DNA from: Sinorhizobium numidicum
GTDB taxonomy: Bacteria; Pseudomonadota; Alphaproteobacteria; Rhizobiales; Rhizobiaceae
Direction: 5' to 3'
Assembly: GCF_029892045.1 (NCBI RefSeq)
Contig: NZ_CP120368.1
Coordinates: 1,362,001-1,426,000, forward strand
DNA length: 64,000 nt
The notes beneath the pieces are model-generated. The model was not told the origin of the DNA. It was given only the letters and a program-made list of their open reading frames with translations, and made no database searches. Position 1 is the stretch's first letter; each line of letters begins with the position of its first letter. The position numbers and the translations under genes were made by a program. Below are positions 7,744 to 17,807 of this stretch, one piece after another.

Positions 7744-9054
7744 ATGACCGCGGCCACGGAAGAGCAGGTGCAGGCTGCCGCTCAGTCTGGAATATCTTCC
7801 GGCCGTCCTTTTTCCGCTTTCGAACGCATGGTTGCCTGGCGCTACCTGCGCTCACGGCGAAAAGAAGCGTTCATCTCGGTCATCGCCGGCTTTTCCTTCA
7901 TCGGCATCATGCTCGGTGTGGCAACGCTGATCATCGTCATGGCGGTGATGAACGGTTTCCGCACTGAGCTCATTTCCCGCATCCTCGGCATGAACGGGCA
8001 TATGATCGTTCAGCCGCTCGATGGTCCGCTCACCAATTATGCCGATCTGGCCACCAAGTTCTCCGCGGTTCCAGGCGTAACGATGGCGATCCCGATGGTC
8101 GAGGGGCAGGTTCTCGCGCAGGGCATCGGCGATGCCTCGACGGGTGCTCTCGTTCGCGGCATCCGCGCCGACGACCTCATGAAGATGAAATCCATCTCGG
8201 AGCATATCCAGTCGGGCGATCTCGTCGGCTTTGCGTCGGGCAGCGGCGTCGCGATCGGCTCCCGGATGGCCGAACAATTGGGAATCCGCGTCGGCGGTAC
8301 GATCACGCTGACCTCGCCGAACGGTGACGTGACCCCGTTGGGAATGAACCCGCGCGTCAAGGCCTACACGGTTTCGGCGATCTTCGAGATCGGCATGTCC
8401 GAATATGACGCGACGATCATCTTCATGCCGCTCGAGGAAGCCCAGCTCTACTTCAACGCCGAAGGCCTCGTCCAGTCCATCGAAATTTTCGCCGAACGTC
8501 CGGATGCCGTCGATACCTTGCGCAAGCCCATCGAAGATGCGGCCGGTCGACAAATCTTCATTACCGACTGGCGAGACCGCAACAAGACCTTCTTTTCGGC
8601 GCTCCAGGTGGAGCGCAACGTGATGTTCATGATCCTCACCCTGATCGTCCTCGTCGCGGCGCTGAACATCGTTTCGGGTCTGATCATGCTGGTCAAGGAC
8701 AAGGGCAGCGACATCGCAATCCTGCGCACCATGGGTGCGACATCCGGATCGGTGATGCGCATTTTCTTCATGACCGGCGCCGCGATCGGCGTCGCCGGGA
8801 CGGTTGCGGGTGTGCTGCTCGGAATTGTCGTCTGCCTCAACGTCGAGTCCATTCGCCAGTTCTTTTCCTGGGCCTCGGGCGAGACGCTCTTCAATCCGGA
8901 GCTCTACTTCCTGAGCCAGCTTCCAGCGGACATGAATGCCGACGAGACCATCTCCGTCGTCGTGATGGCAATCGCGCTTTCCTTCCTTGCCACGATCTTT
9001 CCGGCCTGGCGCGCCTCGCGCCTCGATCCGGTGCAGGCCTTGCGGTACGAATAA
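7744..9054 (+). CDS. lolC: lipoprotein-releasing ABC transporter permease (LolC/LolE type)
   Basis: This is the membrane subunit of the Lol exporter, which releases mature outer-membrane lipoproteins from the inner membrane to LolA. The 436-residue protein has one N-terminal helix (ISVIAGFSFIGIMLGVATLI), a periplasmic MacB-like core, and three C-terminal helices (from VMFMILTLIVLVAALNIVSG) before SRLDPVQALRYE, the usual end. Alphaproteobacteria have one LolC/E-type gene next to lolD, as here. AAGGGA lies six bases before ATG 7744. lolD starts 16 bases downstream. Confidence 0.94.
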   Translation: MTAATEEQVQAAAQSGISSGRPFSAFERMVAWRYLRSRRKEAFISVIAGFSFIGIMLGVATLIIVMAVMNGFRTELISRILGMNGHMIVQPLDGPLTNYADLATKFSAVPGVTMAIPMVEGQVLAQGIGDASTGALVRGIRADDLMKMKSISEHIQSGDLVGFASGSGVAIGSRMAEQLGIRVGGTITLTSPNGDVTPLGMNPRVKAYTVSAIFEIGMSEYDATIIFMPLEEAQLYFNAEGLVQSIEIFAERPDAVDTLRKPIEDAAGRQIFITDWRDRNKTFFSALQVERNVMFMILTLIVLVAALNIVSGLIMLVKDKGSDIAILRTMGATSGSVMRIFFMTGAAIGVAGTVAGVLLGIVVCLNVESIRQFFSWASGETLFNPELYFLSQLPADMNADETISVVVMAIALSFLATIFPAWRASRLDPVQALRYE

Positions 9055-9070
9055 CAAGGACAAGAACTGA

Positions 9071-9757
9071 ATGAATGCGCGCGTGGCACTGCAGCTCACC
9101 GGTATCGAGCGGCACTATGGACAGGGCGACACCTTCCTTTCGATCCTCAAAGGAGCGGATTTCACCTTGAAGGGCGGCGAGACGGTTGCGCTCGTTGCGC
9201 CGTCGGGTACGGGCAAGTCGACGCTGCTTCACATTGCCGGTCTGCTTGAACATCCGGATGCAGGCGAGGTGATCGTGAACGGCATCGCCTGCAACGGGCT
9301 CAGCGATGATCGGCGAACGGCGATCCGTCGCAATGAGATCGGTTTCGTCTACCAGTTCCATCACCTCCTGCCGGAATTCTCCGCGCTCGAAAACATCATG
9401 ATGCCGCAGTTGATCGCCGGTCTGTCCAAGGCGGAGGCGGCGGAAAGGGCAAAGGCCCTGCTCGACTACATGCGCATCAGCCACCGCGCCGCGCATCGTC
9501 CGACCGAGCTTTCCGGCGGCGAGCAGCAGCGCGTCGCGATCGCACGGGCGGTGGCAAATGCGCCGCTTGTTCTCCTGGCTGATGAGCCGACCGGCAACCT
9601 CGATCCCGAGACCGCCGGCTATGTCTTCGAAGCACTGGAGGCGCTGGCGCGTCAGTCGGGGCTGGCTGCGCTGATCGCCACCCACAATCACGAACTGGCC
9701 TCCCTGATGGACCGTCGCGTGACGATCGAGGACGGCAAGGTCGTCGAAATGAAATAG
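9071..9757 (+). CDS. lolD: lipoprotein-releasing ABC transporter ATP-binding protein
   Basis: LolD is the cytoplasmic ATPase that powers lipoprotein release through the permease encoded just upstream. The 228 residues contain Walker [10 protein letters not shown] (about 43-51), the LolD-type sequence [20 protein letters not shown], the ABC signature [14 protein letters not shown], Walker [15 protein letters not shown] and the switch histidine in ATHNHEL. The LolD motif after the Q-loop separates it from other MacB-like ATPases. Last gene of the proS-lolC-lolD run. Confidence 0.95.
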
Positions 9758-9765
9758 CTCGAAGG

Positions 9766-9812
9766 CGCCGCGACTGTTCAGAGGCGTAAAGGTCGCGGTA
9801 GCATTTTGATTT
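9766..9812 (+). repeat. degenerate partial mosaic element after lolD
   Basis: GGCGCCGCGACTGTTCAGAG followed by GCGTAAAGGTCGCGGTAGCA and ATTTTGAT resembles the first half of the mosaic repeats at 36.0 and 49.6 kb, with several changes. The second hairpin is missing. It lies between convergent lolD and the DUF5680 gene. Confidence 0.6.
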
Positions 9813-9821
9813 GCTGCCTGA

Positions 9822-10289
9822 TCAGGGAACGATGAGCCCGCCGCGATAATTAAGCTCATAGGCTTCCTCGCCATCGACGAAGATCGTCTCGCGTCCGGAA
9901 AAATGCTCGGTCTCGCCGCTGCTGCTGTCGATGTAGCATCCATAAGCGTGCTGATACGCCATGCCGCCGAGGAAATGGCCTTTCTCGCGGTACATCGCCT
10001 GAAGTGCTGCCTTGATGATGATGCCGGTTCTTTGCGCGTCGATCAGATCCGGGCGGACGATGCGGCCGAAATAGTTCATCGCCCATCGGGGTTTCCCGTC
10101 GTGCCAGACGGTTTCCTGGCCGGCGAAATCGGTCCCGCCGAAATAGCTATCGAGATAGCGCCATGCGCCGCGTTCATGGCCGATATCGTTGGAGCCTGGC
10201 CGGCAGGCCGGAAGCATCGTGCCATTGCCCACATACGTCTTCGACTTGGCTTCGACGACGAAGTCCCTGAGTTCTTCGATGCTGACCAT
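9822..10289 (-). CDS. DUF5680 domain protein with a LexA box upstream
   Basis: The 155-residue protein resembles the DUF5680 family: an N-terminal ELRDFVVEAKSKTY segment, then SRPGSxD-like CRPGSNDIGHERGAW, DSYFGGTDFAGQETVWHDGK, and the end of the domain YELNYRGGLIVP. It has no signal peptide or membrane segment and no known catalytic motif; its function is unknown. I chose ATG 10289, with GAGGAAAC upstream. A GAAC-N7-GAAC LexA box lies 54 bases before the start, so damage induction is likely. It runs in the same direction as the secreted-protein gene upstream but has its own operator, so it may be transcribed alone. Confidence 0.8.
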   Translation of the reverse strand: MVSIEELRDFVVEAKSKTYVGNGTMLPACRPGSNDIGHERGAWRYLDSYFGGTDFAGQETVWHDGKPRWAMNYFGRIVRPDLIDAQRTGIIIKAALQAMYREKGHFLGGMAYQHAYGCYIDSSSGETEHFSGRETIFVDGEEAYELNYRGGLIVP

Positions 10290-10342
10290 GATGTTTCCTC
10301 GATCTCCGCGCGCAAGATGCCGCAACATCCTCCGCGTGTAAA

Positions 10343-10357
10343 GAACAAATAGGGAAC
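10343..10357 (-). promoter_or_regulatory. LexA (SOS) box of the DUF5680 gene
   Basis: GAAC, seven bases (AAATAGG), GAAC is an exact match to the alphaproteobacterial LexA operator GAAC-N7-GAAC (GTTC-N7-GTTC read towards the gene). It lies in the 82-base gap between the DUF5680 gene and the secreted-protein gene. Confidence 0.75.
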
Positions 10358-10371
10358 AAATAGCGGAAGTT

Positions 10372-10947
10372 TTACTCGGCACCGCAAGCCTTCTGACCGA
10401 TGTCGTCACTCCAGTCCTTGAGCAAAACGGTCGCGCCTCTGGCGGTGATCGGCTTGTTGTTTCTCGTTCCTTTGCCACTCAATACGCTGAAATCGCATTG
10501 CATTGTGGCATTGGGGTCGAGCGTGTCGTAGGACGAGTAGGTGTAGCCGGCGACGACGAAATCGGATTTGCGAAAGGCGATCGTGAGCTTTTGTTCCCAG
10601 CGTTCACGGCCGATAGCGTCATTGTGCGATGTGATCTGTATCGAGCCGTTCGACAGGCCAGTAATCGATGGCGCCTGGCCATAGAGTTCGAACGTTCCCC
10701 ATACTTTGTTGGGTATCTGCGACTTCAACGTGAGCCTGCCGACCTCATTGCTAAGATAGAGATAGATGGCATTGTCCTCGTCGCTGCCGTCGGCAGGCGC
10801 TACGAGAAGTGCCAGATCGCTTGCTCCATTCTTGTCCCAATCACCCGTTGCGGCAGAGACGATTCGGGCCGGGTCTATAGGCTCGGCGGCAAATCCGGGG
10901 GAGGGCAGCAGCAAAAGGAGAAAGGCGGAAATCAGACGTTTTTGCAT
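10372..10947 (-). CDS. secreted protein of unknown function
   Basis: The 191-residue product begins with a clear signal peptide (MQKRLISAFLLLLLPSPGFA, then AEP). The mature part contains GDWDKNGASDLALLVAPADG, which resembles the calcium-binding-like FG-GAP/VCBS repeat motif found in extracytoplasmic proteins, then mostly beta-rich sequence with one cysteine near the middle and one near the end. I recognise no enzyme motif. AGGGAG precedes ATG 10947, which starts the signal peptide; the frame stays open further upstream but without a credible start. Probably periplasmic. Confidence 0.75.
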   Translation of the reverse strand: MQKRLISAFLLLLLPSPGFAAEPIDPARIVSAATGDWDKNGASDLALLVAPADGSDEDNAIYLYLSNEVGRLTLKSQIPNKVWGTFELYGQAPSITGLSNGSIQITSHNDAIGRERWEQKLTIAFRKSDFVVAGYTYSSYDTLDPNATMQCDFSVLSGKGTRNNKPITARGATVLLKDWSDDIGQKACGAE

Positions 10948-11188
10948 TGGGACTCCCTGAGATGCAGTGTTCTTAAGAGCAGAACGAAGAGAGCATGGAT
11001 AATTCGCCGCGCGCATCCCGCATCTTCGCGGCTGGGTTTCGATCGCTTTCACGATTTTGGATTGATTCGATCCGGGCCGCCATGGCTTGCAGGCCGTATG
11101 CACGGCAAGCCGGATTAGCTGGCGCATGCGCGCGCGTTAACCATAGTTGCTGAATAGCGGGTCTTTTATGCGCGCTTGCTTGACTATT

Positions 11189-11214
11189 GAACGAAAAAAG
11201 AACAAAAAGGGAAC
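11189..11214 (+). promoter_or_regulatory. tandem LexA operator with three GAAC half-sites
   Basis: GAAC occurs at 11189, 11200 and 11211, so two overlapping GAAC-N7-GAAC boxes share the middle half-site. A -35-like TTGACT at 11180-11185 lies just before, placing the operator over the promoter. The next features downstream are the 28-codon ORF (11238) and dnaE (11451). Confidence 0.8.
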
Positions 11215-11237
11215 ACTAGCGGAAAAGGAGCCATGTT

Positions 11238-11324
11238 ATGACTGATTTCGTTCGTGATCTTGCCGCCTTCGCATCGATGAGCCTTTTCATCGCAAGCATT
11301 TCGGTGATTGCACTCAGCATGTGA
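11238..11324 (+). CDS. 28-residue membrane peptide under LexA control (candidate)
   Basis: This small ORF starts MTDFVRDLAAFASMSL and ends with FIASISVIALSM. Residues 8-28 are hydrophobic enough for one membrane helix, after a short charged N-terminus (Asp3, Arg6, Asp7). AAGGAG ends seven bases before the ATG, an excellent ribosome binding site, and the tandem LexA operator lies 24 bases upstream. In the family of ideas this fits best, Caulobacter SidA is a 29-residue SOS-induced inner-membrane division inhibitor; I do not claim sequence homology. It is too short for usual gene callers. Its transcript may continue into dnaE, 126 bases away. Confidence 0.65.
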   Translation: MTDFVRDLAAFASMSLFIASISVIALSM

Positions 11325-11450
11325 TCGCTGCTCGCCGGAACGCGGGCAATTTTCAGGCCGGCAAAAAACGCCCTGTGCTCGTCGTAAGGCTGGACAGCAG
11401 GGAACGGAAACGGGATATCCTCCGCACTGGACAGGAATCGGAGTGCGGCG

Positions 11451-14400
11451 ATGGCAAGTGATGAAGGCGTTGGGCAGGGCGTGACGGGTGCAGCAGATCC
11501 GCAGTTCGTTCATCTGCGCGTGCATTCGGCATTTTCGCTGCTCGAAGGCGCCCTGCCGCTGAAGAAGATCATCGGCAAGGCTGTCGCGGACGACCAGCCT
11601 GCGATTGGTATTGCCGACACCAACAATCTATTCGCTGCCCTTGAGTTTTCGCAGAAGGCCGCGGAAGACGGGTTGCAGCCGATCATTGGCTGCCAACTGT
11701 CGATCGACATGGAGGATGAGGCGGAAGGCGAGCGACGCGGCCACAGTCAGCATCTCGCAAGGCTTCCCGCGGTCGTTTTGATCGCCGCGACGGATGAGGG
11801 CTATGTTCGCCTTGTGGATCTTGTCAGCCGCGCTTACCTAGATGGCGAAGGCAGTCATGCGGTGCGCATAACACGCTCGTGGCTCGCCGATGGCGGTACG
11901 GATGGGTTGATGGCGCTGACCGGCGCCGGCGGCGGCCCGGTCGACATGGCGCTCAAGGCGGGCTCGCCGGCCCTGGCTGAAGCGCGCCTGAAGGCATTGA
12001 TCGAGCTTTTCGGCAATCGGCTTTACGTAGAGTTGCAGCGGCATGGCAACTTTGATCGTCGTCACGAAAATCGCATGATCGATCTTGCCTATCGGCTTGA
12101 TGTTCCTCTCGTCGCGACCAACGAACCCTTCTTTCCATCGCCGTCCGATTATGACGCTCATGATGCGCTGATGGCCGTCGCCCATAACGCAATGGTGTCC
12201 GACGACAGCCGTTTCCGCCTGACGCCCGATCATTACCTGAAGAGCCGCAAGGAGATGGCGGCTCTGTTCGCCGATCTGCCCGAAGCGCTGGAAACCACTG
12301 TCGAAATCGCCCGCCGCTGCTCGTTTATACTGAAAACCCGCGGTCCGATCCTGCCGCGCTTTACCGGTGCATCGGACGATCCGGAGGAGGCCGGGCGCGC
12401 CGAAGCTGCGGAGTTGCGCCGCCAAGCGGAGGAGGGGCTCGAGAATCGTCTGGCAAAGCTTGGCATGGCGCCCGGCTACAAGGAGGAGGATTATCGGGAG
12501 CGGCTGGCTTTCGAACTCGGCGTTATCGAGCGGATGAAGTTTCCGGGCTATTTCCTGATCGTTTCGGACTTCATCAAATGGGCCAAGCAGCATGATATTC
12601 CGGTCGGCCCCGGCCGCGGCTCGGGCGCCGGATCGCTGGTTGCTTATGCGCTGACGATCACCGACGTCGATCCGATGCGTTTCTCACTGCTGTTCGAGCG
12701 GTTCCTCAACCCGGAACGCGTGTCGATGCCAGACTTTGATATCGACTTCTGCCAGGATCGCCGCGAAGAAGTCATCCGCTACGTCCAGAAAAAATACGGT
12801 CGTGAGCAGGTAGCCCAGATCATCACCTTCGGTTCACTGCAGGCGCGTGCAGCCCTGCGCGACGTCGGTCGGGTGCTCGAAATGCCCTATGGCCAGGTCG
12901 ATAAGATCTGCAAGCTCGTGCCGAACAACCCGGCGAACCCGACGCCACTTTCGAAGGCGATTGAAGAGGAGCCGCGGCTGCAGGAGGAGGCGGAAAAGGA
13001 GCCGGTTGTCGCTCGGCTTCTTGACATAGCGCAGAAGATTGAGGGCCTCTACCGCCACGCCTCGACGCATGCGGCCGGCATCGTTATCGGCGACCGGCCT
13101 CTGTCGCAACTGGTGCCGATGTACCGCGATCCGCGTTCCGACATGCCGGTTACCCAGTTCAACATGAAATGGGTGGAGCAGGCCGGGCTCGTCAAATTCG
13201 ACTTCCTCGGCTTAAAGACACTGACGGTCCTGAAGACCGCGGTCGATTTCGTCGCCAAGCGCGGGATTCACATCGATCTCGCGAGCATCCCGCTCGACGA
13301 CACGAAGACTTATGAGATGCTGTCGCGCGGCGAAACGGTCGGCGTGTTCCAAGTGGAAAGCGCCGGCATGCGCAAGGCGCTGATCGGCATGCGTCCCGAC
13401 TGCATCGAGGACATCATTGCGCTGGTTGCGCTCTACCGCCCCGGCCCGATGGAAAACATCCCGGTCTACAATGCCCGCAAGCACGGCGAGGAAGAGATCG
13501 AATCGATCCATCCGAAGATCGACTATCTGCTCAAGGAAACGCAGGGGGTTATCGTCTACCAGGAACAGGTGATGCAGATCGCCCAGGTGCTCTCGGGCTA
13601 TTCGCTCGGCGAGGCCGACCTTCTGCGCCGCGCGATGGGCAAGAAGATCAAGGCGGAGATGGACCAGCAGCGTGCCCGCTTCGTCGACGGCGCCGTCAAG
13701 AACGGCGTGTCGAAGCCGCAGGCCGATCTGATTTTCGATCTTCTCGCGAAGTTCGCGAACTACGGCTTCAACAAGTCGCATGCGGCAGCCTACGCCATCG
13801 TTTCCTACCAGACCGCCTATATGAAGGCGCACTATCCGGTCGAGTTTCTAGCTGCCTCCATGACGCTCGACATGTCGAACACGGATAAGATCAACGACTT
13901 CCGTCAAGACGCGATGCGCCTCGGCATTCAAGTGAGTGCCCCCTCGGTGCAGAGCTCCTTCCGCCATTTCGAGACCGGCGACAATCGCATCTATTATTCG
14001 CTCGCCGCGATCAAGGGCGTGGGCGAATCGGCGGTCGAGCACATCGTTGCGGTTCGCGGCGATCGCCCCTTCGCCAGCCTTGAGGATTTCTGCCTCAGGA
14101 TTGATCCCAAACTCTTGAACAGGCGTGTTTTCGAAAGCCTGATTGCCGCCGGCGCTTTCGATTGCTTCGGATATGACCGGGCCGAGCTGATCGGAGGGCT
14201 TGACCGGATACTTGGCTTCGCCCAGCGCGCCCAGGAAAACAAGGTGAGCGGGCAGAGCGACATGTTCGGTGCCGGCGCTGCGACCGGGCCGGAAAAGATC
14301 GCTCTGCCTGCCTACACGCCCTGGCTCGCCTCGGAGAAATTGCACCGGGAGTTTCAGGTCCTGGGCTTCTACCTTTCCGCCCATCCGCTCGATACCTACA

Positions 14401-14948
14401 ACAAACTGCTGGCGAAGATGCGCGTGCAAACGTTTGCGGATTTTGCCGCGGCTGTGAAACAGGGGGCGACGGCAGGCAGGCTTGCGGGAACAGTGACGTC
14501 GAAACAGGAGCGCAAGACGCGCACCGGCAACAAAATGGGTATAGTCGCCTTCTCGGACGCTTCGGGCCAGTTTGAAGCCGTGCTCTTTTCGGAGATGCTG
14601 CACCAGTACCGCGACCTGCTGGAACCCGGCAAATCGCTGGTGATGACCGTGGCGGCGGAAGAGCGGCCGGAGGGCATTGGCCTTCGCATACAAACCTTGC
14701 GATCTCTAGAAGAGGAATCGCTGCAGATGCAGAAGGCGCTGCGCGTCTATGTACGCGACGCCGGACCCCTCCGCTCGATAGCCTCCCATCTGAATACCAA
14801 GGGCGACAGTCTCGTTTCCTTTGTCGTCATCAAGGATAACGGCCAGCGGGAGATCGAGGTCGAACTCAGCGAGAAATATCGGATCTCGCCCGAGATCGCC
14901 GCCGCACTTCGCTCCGCGCCCGGCGTTGTCGACGTCGAACTTGTCTAG
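11451..14948 (+). CDS. dnaE: DNA polymerase III subunit alpha
   Basis: This is the replicative polymerase DnaE1. The 1165 residues show the N-terminal PHP domain (FVHLRVHSAFSLLEGALPLKK), the C-family active site with GPGRGSGAGSLVAYAL and MPDFDIDFCQDRR (Asp430 and Asp432 approximately), the helix-hairpin-helix region near VKGVGE-like IKGVGESAVEHIV, and an OB domain (AGTVTSKQERKTRTGNKMGI). The length and PHP domain fit DnaE1 and not the shorter error-prone DnaE2, which is normally encoded with imuA-imuB. ATG 11451 is preceded by GGAG at a somewhat long distance. The tandem LexA operator upstream may also affect it. Confidence 0.96.
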   Translation: MASDEGVGQGVTGAADPQFVHLRVHSAFSLLEGALPLKKIIGKAVADDQPAIGIADTNNLFAALEFSQKAAEDGLQPIIGCQLSIDMEDEAEGERRGHSQHLARLPAVVLIAATDEGYVRLVDLVSRAYLDGEGSHAVRITRSWLADGGTDGLMALTGAGGGPVDMALKAGSPALAEARLKALIELFGNRLYVELQRHGNFDRRHENRMIDLAYRLDVPLVATNEPFFPSPSDYDAHDALMAVAHNAMVSDDSRFRLTPDHYLKSRKEMAALFADLPEALETTVEIARRCSFILKTRGPILPRFTGASDDPEEAGRAEAAELRRQAEEGLENRLAKLGMAPGYKEEDYRERLAFELGVIERMKFPGYFLIVSDFIKWAKQHDIPVGPGRGSGAGSLVAYALTITDVDPMRFSLLFERFLNPERVSMPDFDIDFCQDRREEVIRYVQKKYGREQVAQIITFGSLQARAALRDVGRVLEMPYGQVDKICKLVPNNPANPTPLSKAIEEEPRLQEEAEKEPVVARLLDIAQKIEGLYRHASTHAAGIVIGDRPLSQLVPMYRDPRSDMPVTQFNMKWVEQAGLVKFDFLGLKTLTVLKTAVDFVAKRGIHIDLASIPLDDTKTYEMLSRGETVGVFQVESAGMRKALIGMRPDCIEDIIALVALYRPGPMENIPVYNARKHGEEEIESIHPKIDYLLKETQGVIVYQEQVMQIAQVLSGYSLGEADLLRRAMGKKIKAEMDQQRARFVDGAVKNGVSKPQADLIFDLLAKFANYGFNKSHAAAYAIVSYQTAYMKAHYPVEFLAASMTLDMSNTDKINDFRQDAMRLGIQVSAPSVQSSFRHFETGDNRIYYSLAAIKGVGESAVEHIVAVRGDRPFASLEDFCLRIDPKLLNRRVFESLIAAGAFDCFGYDRAELIGGLDRILGFAQRAQENKVSGQSDMFGAGAATGPEKIALPAYTPWLASEKLHREFQVLGFYLSAHPLDTYNKLLAKMRVQTFADFAAAVKQGATAGRLAGTVTSKQERKTRTGNKMGIVAFSDASGQFEAVLFSEMLHQYRDLLEPGKSLVMTVAAEERPEGIGLRIQTLRSLEEESLQMQKALRVYVRDAGPLRSIASHLNTKGDSLVSFVVIKDNGQREIEVELSEKYRISPEIAAALRSAPGVVDVELV

Positions 14949-14977
14949 ACCCTTCAGCCATGATCGGGGCAGGGGAG

Positions 14978-16210
14978 TCAGCCGCCTGTCACCGTTCTTG
15001 TGATGGTGATGAAGTCCGTGCCCTCGCCGGTTTCCAGGCCGGAATCTGTATCGGAGATCGACAGCGACGAGCCGTTGGCGAGAAGACCTGCAATACGCTT
15101 ACGGACGTCATCGGGGATGCCGATACGGCTGAGGCTTTGCTGCAGGCTATTGGAGGCTGGCGGATCCGCATCGGCCGTGATGCCGAGCCGTTTTCTCGTC
15201 GCTTTCGGCAGCTCGTTTTCGAGGGAAACGCCGAACCATTTGCCCTCTCCGGTCTTGGCGTCGAAATTTTGGAACTGCAGAAAATGCGTTCCGAGTGCCG
15301 CTTCGGGTTTGTCGATGGTGACGCCAGCTTCAAAGAGTGGCTGAAATTGCCGGCGTACGCGAAGAACACCGTTCGGCGGCATTTCACGTTGGGCCTTGCG
15401 AAATACGGCCTCGATCAGTTCCGGCGTTATTTTGCCATCCGCGGGTAGCCGTTCCGCCGTTTGAAATGCGCGGATCGCTGCGAGCGTCGCCGGGCCGCTA
15501 AGACCATCTGCCAAGCCCGCCTCGTGGCCAAGCATGTTCAAAAGGACCTGGAGGTCGCGTACGGTCTCGCGCATCCCGCGTCTGGTGATCAGGATGCGGA
15601 TCGCCGCCTGCTCTTCGGCGGAGGCGGCCGGGGCCGGAGGCTTGACGGTCATCGCCACCTCGACGGCATTGTTATGGAGTTGGCCGATCGACGGGCGCAG
15701 AGGAACGTCCGACAGCGGCGGCAGTTCATGCTGTCGTGACTGTTTCGGTTGGAAGAGCACCGCACTCGACACCGCGGCAGGTGTCACCTGACGATCCGAT
15801 ATCAGGACGTGCATCCCATGGACGGTCATCTTGAAGAGATTGGCGGCGAACTTGCTCGGGAGCCGCACGCAGCCATGCGACGCGGGATAATCCGGCACGT
15901 GGTTCGAGCCATGGAGCGCGATCCCGGACCAGGTCAGCCTTTGCATGAACGGCATCGGCGCATTCGAATAGATGTTGGACTGGTGTTTCCGGCGCTTTTC
16001 GAGGATCGAAAAGATGCCTGTTGGCGTTCCGTGACCGGCTTTCCCGGTGGAAACTTTCGACGTGGCGACAATGGTGTCGCCGTCATAGACGACGAGGGAT
16101 TGCTGCTCCGTCGAAACGATAATCTGCAATGGCGCCTTGGTCCCGCCGGCAACTGCTGCCGGCGATGACATGAACAGAACGGCAAACCCGACCCTGAGAG
16201 TGAAACGCAA
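14978..16210 (-). CDS. L,D-transpeptidase with peptidoglycan-binding domain
   Basis: This secreted enzyme makes or modifies peptidoglycan cross-links, or links proteins to the wall. The 410 residues start with a signal peptide (cleavage near SSPAAVA-GG), followed by a YkuD domain: GTPTGIFSI, IALHGSNHVPDYPASHGCVR with catalytic Cys114. A peptidoglycan_binding_1 domain follows near residues 205-265 (LQVLLNMLGHEAGLADGLSG, AIRAFQTAERLPADGKITPE). The last 130 residues have no domain that I recognise. Rhizobial walls are rich in L,D cross-links and such genes occur in many copies. It is convergent with dnaE, 29 bases apart. Confidence 0.92.
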   Translation of the reverse strand: MRFTLRVGFAVLFMSSPAAVAGGTKAPLQIIVSTEQQSLVVYDGDTIVATSKVSTGKAGHGTPTGIFSILEKRRKHQSNIYSNAPMPFMQRLTWSGIALHGSNHVPDYPASHGCVRLPSKFAANLFKMTVHGMHVLISDRQVTPAAVSSAVLFQPKQSRQHELPPLSDVPLRPSIGQLHNNAVEVAMTVKPPAPAASAEEQAAIRILITRRGMRETVRDLQVLLNMLGHEAGLADGLSGPATLAAIRAFQTAERLPADGKITPELIEAVFRKAQREMPPNGVLRVRRQFQPLFEAGVTIDKPEAALGTHFLQFQNFDAKTGEGKWFGVSLENELPKATRKRLGITADADPPASNSLQQSLSRIGIPDDVRKRIAGLLANGSSLSISDTDSGLETGEGTDFITITRTVTGG

Positions 16211-16384
16211 AACCTACCCTCATCCGACACTGGAGCGCCGTACGTCCATGAGCGCGCAACGGCCGCACCTTCGATCAGAGCGCCTCATCCGCTTCCCTAA
16301 GACGGGCCGAAAGCGGAACACGCCCGAGTTGTCGAACGAGGGTATCGCTCAATATTTAAGGAATTGGATCACAGGCAGGCGAGG

Positions 16385-16472
16385 CTACAGCGCCGTGCTT
16401 TTTTCACGCGCAAAGGCGCTGTAGCACTTGAAGTGTGCATGATTTCATCCTTCCAATTCGAGGAATCATGCC
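16385..16472 (+). repeat. rhizobial intergenic mosaic element, copy 2
   Basis: CTACAGCGCCGTGCTTTTTT, CACGCGCAAAGGCGCTGTAG, then CACTTGAAGTG and a GCATGATTTC to GAATCATGC hairpin reproduce both halves of the family. It lies between the L,D-transpeptidase gene and the end of dinB. The rest of this 284-base gap shows no gene. Confidence 0.75.
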
Positions 16473-16494
16473 GTAGCGAGCAGGGCCTCATAAA

Positions 16495-17787
16495 CTACCG
16501 ATCACGTCGGCGATGGCCGAAGGTATATCCGGTTTCGACGCTCGTTTTGCCGAATTTGTCGCGCAGCTTGTTGATCGCATCCTCCGCGGCCGCCCGTCTC
16601 GTCGCCAGCGGATCCACAAGGTCCGGCGGGTCGGCGCGAGCCGGATCCGAGAGGTCGCTGACACCGATGCCGATCAACCTGTATTTCGTTCCGTCGACCT
16701 CCTTTTCGAGCAGTCGCAGCCCAGTGCGGAAAATGCGGTCCGCAAGGCGCGTTGGGCTGTCCAGACGACGGTTGCGGGTGCGGCTCTTGAAATCGGCAGT
16801 CTTGAGCTTGAGCACGACGGTTTGTCCTGCAAGCGCCGACTTGCGTAGGCGCAGCGCGACCTGTTCGCTCAGTCGTCTGAGATGCGCAATGAGTTCTTCG
16901 GGACGCGAAATATCCGCGTTGAAGGTCGTCTCGGAGGACACGCTCTTCGCTTCACCGTTCGTCTCGACCGTCCTCTCGTCGAGCCCTCGGGAAAGCCGAT
17001 AGAGCCTCTGTCCCATCGTGCCGTAGCGGCGCATGAGATCGGCCTCCTCCATCGTCTGCAACTGGCCGATCGTGCGGATGCCGTCCCGCTCCAGCGTCGT
17101 GGCAAAGCCCTTGCCGACGCCCCAGATCAGTGTAACAGGCCGCTCCTTCAGGAAGTCCACCGCTTCGGCCTGGCCGATGACGGAAAAGCCGCGCGGCTTC
17201 TGCAGGTCGGAGGCGACCTTGGCAAGGAACTTGCAGTAGGAGAGCCCCACAGAGACGGTGATGCCGACTTCCTGCTCTATGCGTCTGGCAAAGCGGGCAA
17301 GGGTGCGAGCAGGCGCATCATGATGAAGCCGTTCCGTGCCGCTGAGATCGAGAAATGCCTCGTCTATGGAGAGCGGCTGGACGAGCGGAGTCAATTCCAG
17401 CATCATCGCTCGCACTTCCCGCGTGACGCGCGAATATTTCTCCATGTCCGGCTTGATCACCACCGCCTGTGGGCAGGCTTCCAGAGCTTTGAACATCGGC
17501 ATGGCCGAGCGGACGCCGTTGATCCGGGCGATATAACAGGCGGTGGAAACGACGCCACGTTTGCCGCCGCCGATGATCACCGGCTTATCCGCGAGTTCCG
17601 GATTGTCGCGCTTCTCGACCGAGGCATAAAAGGCGTCGCAATCGATATGGGCCAGGCTCAGGCTGCGGAGTTCCGGATGGCGGAGAAGTCGGGGGCTGCC
17701 GCAGGCCAGGCAGCGTCGCGCCCCGGAGGTTTGTTCCTTGAGGCAGTCTCGGCAGAACCCAGGAATCGATGCAGCGCTGTCGGGCAT
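16495..17787 (-). CDS. dinB: DNA polymerase IV with N-terminal Cys4 motif
   Basis: This Y-family polymerase copies past DNA damage with low fidelity. The 430 residues hold the family core: [15 protein letters not shown] (catalytic Asp49), [13 protein letters not shown], the helix-hairpin-helix [20 protein letters not shown] and a little-finger domain. Before the core there is an extension with CX2C-X10-CX2C (Cys12, 15, 26, 29), which looks like a small zinc ribbon. The usual beta-clamp motif is not obvious at the C-terminus ([11 protein letters not shown]). A LexA box ends five bases before the ATG, so SOS repression is expected. Divergent from a GNAT gene. Confidence 0.95.
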
Positions 17788-17792
17788 ATCCG

Positions 17793-17807
17793 GAACAAAT
17801 GTTGAAC
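17793..17807 (-). promoter_or_regulatory. LexA (SOS) box of dinB
   Basis: GAAC-AAATGTT-GAAC is an exact GAAC-N7-GAAC site, read as GTTC-N7-GTTC towards dinB, starting only five bases before its ATG. Bound LexA would cover the start region. It also lies 55 bases before the divergent GNAT gene. Confidence 0.85.

Follow-up and report, generated by a model that had tools for sequence, protein, structure and literature searches.

A 28-codon open reading frame (ORF) directly ahead of dnaE in Sinorhizobium numidicum very probably encodes the rhizobial orthologue of SidA, the Caulobacter division inhibitor: a peptide that would be LexA-repressed and damage-induced and would hold FtsW inactive. The gene lies in a window of 64,000 nucleotides, the whole stretch of DNA analysed here. 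Judged from its sequence and surroundings, the peptide is a new, so far unnamed member of the SidA kind, and its orthology with SidA appears well supported. It combines sequence homology to SidA and the same gene neighbourhood with a predicted single-helix membrane peptide of ~29 residues and a LexA-type box in the putative promoter.

Sequence elements ahead of dnaE

Three copies of GAAC on the forward strand (11189, 11200 and 11211) form two overlapping LexA-type boxes at 11189-11214. Box 1, GAACGAAAAAAGAAC (11189..11203), is present in 30/30 same-genus loci, while box 2, GAACAAAAAGGGAAC (11200..11214), which overlaps it, is intact in 18/30. The window has a single instance of the triple arrangement GAAC-N7-GAAC-N7-GAAC, and dinucleotide shuffles gave none; single GAAC-N7-GAAC boxes number six against 2.2 expected, and at least six were reached by 2 of 100 shuffles. 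A ribosome-binding site, AAGGAG (11225..11230, forward strand), stands 7 nt before the ATG, and this site or a close form of it is found in same-genus loci. The ORF itself, 28 codons and a TGA stop (11238..11324, forward strand; translation MTDFVRDLAAFASMSLFIASISVIALSM), encodes a SidA-type single-helix membrane peptide, as predicted from its single hydrophobic segment, with a hydropathy of 2.23 over the best 19 residues. ORFs with equal length, hydropathy and ribosome-site class arose in 4 of 2000 dinucleotide shuffles of 11130-11450. The peptide has no NCBIfam or Pfam match. Its constant downstream neighbour is dnaE (11451..14948, forward strand), which encodes the DNA polymerase III alpha subunit (PF07733, PF17657, PF02811, PF14579).

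The initial annotation had described the three GAAC copies at 11-base spacing with their two overlapping boxes, as well as an ORF of 28 codons with an optimal AAGGAG site, a hydrophobic helix and a stop, and all of these are found at the positions given above. It had also called the region promoter-like, which is the weakest point of that observation. A -35-like CTTGAC beside the boxes (11179..11184, forward strand) is kept in 30/30 aligned same-genus loci, but no good -10 is evident near it and a sigma-70 consensus scan returned no promoter.

Other genes of the same genome carry the same type of box. The LexA DNA-binding family has one match in the genome, and in front of the matching gene GAACACATATGGAAC stops 48 nt short of the ATG; recA has GAACAAGAATCGAAC upstream. 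The Caulobacter SOS box is GTTCN7GTTC, the opposite-strand form of GAAC-N7-GAAC (review PMC9578287). The sites at 11189-11214 can therefore be regarded as LexA-type, by their sequence and by this company.

Two further boxes occur within the window. A DUF5680 gene (PF18931; 9822-10289, reverse strand), divergent from the peptide gene, has GAACAAATAGGGAAC at 10343-10357, 53 nt ahead of its likely ATG. Among 30 same-genus loci, GAAC-N7-GAAC stands just ahead of the DUF5680 gene in 21/21 well-matching full-length copies, three diverged or partial copies (L006, L020, L027) are without it, and 6/30 loci have no copy; the gene is a candidate second SOS gene. In addition, GAACAAATGTTGAAC at 17793-17807 lies 5 nt ahead of the start used for dinB (16495-17787, reverse strand). 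Given this short distance, DNA polymerase IV may be LexA-controlled, or the true dinB start may be further in.

Conservation within the genus

A 351-base query was compared with 60 genomes, of which 33 matched (own included), 32 of them same-genus. The genus sample held 33 genomes, own included, and its sole non-match, G023, is 85% complete. The start, the 28 codons, the stop, the ribosome site and at least one GAAC-N7-GAAC are kept in 32/32 matching same-genus genomes, with no indel in the ORF across them (box and identity counts come from a first set of 30 loci, which two more loci complete to 32). For 26 distinct same-genus sequences, the Nei-Gojobori method gave pS 0.396, pN 0.053 and dN/dS 0.097, and sequence pairs differed on average by 0.082, 0.029 and 0.303 at codon positions 1, 2 and 3. 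Across 30 loci, mean pairwise identity was 0.87 in the ORF and 0.82 upstream of it; for the gap to dnaE, compared in 14 loci, it was 0.73. The codon pattern is opposite in two other sense and two antisense frames, and weaker in one antisense frame. Codon conservation and dN/dS had been proposed as a check by the initial annotation, and the outcome, a frame, start and box kept throughout under a low dN/dS, favours the rhizobial counterpart of SidA that the annotation had proposed.

One antisense frame is stop-free in 26/26 sequences, with pS (0.30) above pN (0.08). It is read as a mirror of the stronger sense codon pattern.

Relatives across Rhizobiales and other Alphaproteobacteria

A profile of 11 same-genus peptides was searched against 199 genomes of the family. 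Matches at E<=1 were obtained in 141, much of this tail being chance, and matches at E<=0.01 in 67/199, counted among the matches listed. Each of the best 30 family loci by E-value, among them three of the same genus with the own one counted, is situated ahead of dnaE and on its strand. A search of the order (297 genomes) gave 29 further loci, 21 of them ahead of dnaE on its strand, 17 outside the family; the remaining 8/29, not ahead of dnaE, had E-values of 0.004 or worse. Short ORFs with GAAC boxes ahead of dnaE, which the initial annotation had suggested looking for in other Rhizobiales, are found across Rhizobiaceae and beyond.

In most of these loci, a perfect box lies within 90 nt before the ORF (it is absent in L054, L064, L074, L076, L077 and L088). 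L284, L287 and L295 hold a peptide or peptide-like ORF with no perfect GAAC-N7-GAAC in the scanned stretch, and L308 has one perfect box and another one base off; imperfect boxes may be common. As a guess, L090 and L093 represent a Bradyrhizobium-like group carrying the peptide.

Similar arrangements are seen in other groups. For example, Devosia has a close form of the peptide ahead of dnaE. At the same place, a box and a short ORF of hydrophobic character occur in Methylobacterium, Methylorubrum and Marinicaulis, the likeness in the first two being one of position and hydrophobicity. Bosea has a short hydrophobic peptide-like ORF there with no perfect box, its likeness being one of position and hydrophobicity. 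Parvibaculaceae carry a form of 43-47 aa that shares the core and is annotated as 'hypothetical protein' in those sources that give it a name; in L121-L150 of this family, a variable N-terminal extension of ~10-16 residues precedes a conserved W..D.A.L core.

A class-wide profile search (A2, 385 genomes) returned mostly chance matches beyond G000, G837 and G262, and a dnaE-anchored reading was used for this reason. From DnaE alone (best DnaE matches first, plus 20 hand-chosen places), 105 usable loci were found, leaving out L145 and L167 (upstream sequence too short) and L279 (which duplicates L134). In 54/105 of them, a box lies no more than 500 nt ahead of the DnaE match, and 54/54 of these also contain a short ORF that is hydrophobic and has a ribosome site; five other loci have the ORF only, 46 have neither and none has the box only (Fisher P 2e-24). 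In one of these loci, L302, the scripted ORF is not SidA-type, and a SidA-type 29-mer missed by the ribosome-site filter was found by hand. When Parvibaculaceae are set aside (74 loci), the counts are 26 with both, none with the box only, four with the ORF only and 44 with neither (P 4e-16). Both P values overstate independence, as the loci share ancestry and were not sampled at random. The antisense strand of these stretches served as a control, and such an ORF was found there in 3/54. Azospirillum, Belnapia and Emcibacter are among those with neither a box nor such an ORF ahead of dnaE.

Homology to Caulobacter SidA

The Caulobacter PleD sequence (PDB) led to 80 loci, mostly in named genomes, and DnaE was searched in 35 of these genomes. 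It matched in 34/35; the one without a match is the sole genome bearing the title Caulobacter vibrioides, and the comparison thus rests on genomes other than that of the type species. Peptides of 29-31 aa lie directly ahead of dnaE in 13/13 Caulobacteraceae (Caulobacter, Phenylobacterium, Brevundimonas and another genus), with a perfect box upstream in 11/13. For Caulobacter, where naming was checked, the database name of this peptide is 'cell division inhibitor SidA'. NCBIfam NF033228 confirms the identity, as three Caulobacter peptides score 57-73 bits against a curated cut-off of 35 bits. Published anchors agree with a location of SidA ahead of dnaE: sidA is CCNA_02004 (PMC11034885), Caulobacter dnaE is CC1926 (PMC1839093), and SidA has 29 aa, resides in the inner membrane and acts on FtsW (PMC4211646). 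Mitomycin C strongly induces the sidA promoter (PMC5189948).

A profile of 22 peptides built without Caulobacteraceae was then compared with 13 whole Caulobacteraceae genomes, and its best match was the SidA locus in 12/13. In G937, the one miss, a matching peptide nonetheless stands ahead of dnaE (upstream scan, L290). The E-values of the 12 best matches range from 0.001 to 0.7, so that the weight is carried by the repeated place and not by the scores. With hhalign, Caulobacteraceae SidA (A5) against A6 gave P 4.4e-7 and a probability of 92.6%, with the register from Met kept, and A5 against A2 gave P 1.8e-4 and 48.7%. A5 against the same-genus set A1 was weak (P 0.012, 3.7%), and on these alignments the link between the same-genus peptide and SidA needs intermediates. 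The window peptide has no match to NF033228 (div_inhib_SidA, equivalog) even at E 10, and it is therefore not filed in that family. The initial annotation had proposed a rhizobial counterpart of SidA by analogy; the shared dnaE position and the profile built without Caulobacteraceae now lend this proposal support.

Relation to dnaE and other explanations

The gap between the peptide ORF and the FVHL codons of dnaE ranges from 169 to 315 nt (16/30 loci, where read). Within its variable background, a promoter-like element, CTGGAC-N17-GGATAT (11390..11418, forward strand), stands conserved in the 14 aligned gaps. A rhizobial sigma-70 consensus, CTTGAC-N17-CTATAT, is close to it. This conserved element makes a separate promoter for dnaE probable, and transcription started at the LexA promoter may also run on into dnaE.

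In Sinorhizobium meliloti 2011, a small ORF in the 5'-UTR of dnaE1, sORF25, was detected by Ribo-seq and a role as an upstream ORF (uORF) was suggested (PMC10117765). It is among the Ribo-seq sORFs missing from two annotations (PMC10117765), in agreement with the earlier expectation that the window gene would be missed by standard gene callers. The terms SidA and LexA have no occurrence in the main text of that paper. By its position, sORF25 is probably the counterpart of the window gene.

The suggested uORF role raises the question of whether the ORF is a leader whose translation tunes dnaE, the peptide itself being inert. Such a leader would agree with the finding that all loci accepted as relatives have the ORF ahead of dnaE, and with the authors' own suggestion for sORF25, but it is unlikely in view of residue conservation that reaches Caulobacter although the distance to dnaE is variable. 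The promoter-like element that dnaE has of its own in the gap also argues against it, as do the lack of a terminator-like site in 10950-11600 and of an Rfam match at E 1 in 10950-11700, and the Caulobacter peptide is a division inhibitor by experiment (PMC4211646). A terminator or attenuator was dropped as a candidate, since no terminator-like site was found in the stretch scanned.

Small SOS membrane peptides of another kind include TisB and DinQ, and the toxin type depolarises the membrane and causes dormancy. The window gene is alike in style, being short and hydrophobic with a LexA-type box, yet we consider depolarisation and dormancy instead of specific FtsW inhibition very unlikely, because homology and position match SidA; a known antisense RNA family was not detected with Rfam either (same stretch and E-value), although an undescribed RNA may be present. 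Short ORFs are common in this DNA (115 of at least 20 aa overlap the 8-kb stretch 8500-16500), and one might have arisen by chance below boxes that act on dnaE alone. The probability of this is close to nil: chance was rejected as contradicted by the codon pattern, with its dN/dS of 0.097 and the opposite or weaker pattern of the other sense and antisense frames, and the absence of indels in 32 genomes and conservation across several families point the same way. The SidA-type inhibitor is thus the preferred reading.

Proposed mechanism and the FtsW target

As a SidA-type inhibitor, the peptide would be controlled by LexA, which would keep its promoter shut by binding the GAAC-N7-GAAC sites. 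Upon DNA damage, RecA would trigger LexA cleavage and the peptide would be made. It would then insert in the inner membrane as a single helix and keep FtsW, the synthase of the septal wall, inactive (with FtsI/FtsN) for as long as repair lasts. All these steps, from binding by LexA and damage induction to insertion in the membrane and action on FtsW, are inferred from Caulobacter, and a checkpoint function likely follows from orthology with SidA.

A single protein of this genome matches the FtsW/RodA family, and it aligns with FtsW, compared with two matches each in three Caulobacteraceae genomes; Rhizobiales are described as being without the canonical Rod complex (PMC8546619). With the Caulobacter SidA suppressor sites in FtsW taken from PMC4211646, F145 and A246 are kept in this genome, and A31, the site of a SidA-specific suppressor, is T, a point against the SidA reading; A246 says little, as A is also found in RodA. 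The FtsW/RodA count and the kept sites fit, but do not prove, the FtsW route.

A broader reading is offered more tentatively, with somewhat less than even confidence. SidA would be no peculiarity of Caulobacter but an ancestral damage checkpoint in much of the Alphaproteobacteria, retained ahead of dnaE all along, and the FtsW route, with arrest of septation, would operate in polar-growing Rhizobiales with FtsW as the only SEDS synthase. Read-through from the LexA promoter may raise the replicative polymerase while damage lasts, so that the division stop and resynthesis would form one unit.

Comparison with known systems

No link between SidA and rhizobia was found in the literature searched, which lay outside most subscription journals, so that an earlier mention is possible; the peptide is hence a candidate for how rhizobia halt division after damage. 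If true, a function would be provided for a translated Sinorhizobium sORF of so far obscure role, and the division checkpoint would extend across several families. From the sequences compared, the SidA-type checkpoint looks older and more widespread than naming suggests. A further question would then be why a peptide of the SOS response has remained linked to dnaE over such a long time.

The closest known system is SidA of Caulobacter, which shares with the window gene a LexA-type box, a position directly ahead of dnaE and one hydrophobic helix. In ungapped register, both peptides have M1, R6, an acidic residue at 7, A10, S13 and F17. The window peptide differs in having 28 residues instead of 29 and in being without the W-M-M-C core and Q-L-V end of SidA. 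The likeness to sORF25 of S. meliloti 2011 is that of a small translated ORF in the 5'-UTR of dnaE1. YneA, SosA, ChiZ and DidA are comparable by description, as small membrane proteins that inhibit division and are produced in response to DNA damage, and YneA acts on FtsW (PMC13396833). DidA differs in being SOS-independent and 71 aa long (PMC4211646), and a low-confidence model places SidA at the side of FtsW TM7 that is opposite to the one used by YneA, SosA, ChiZ and DidA (PMC13396833).
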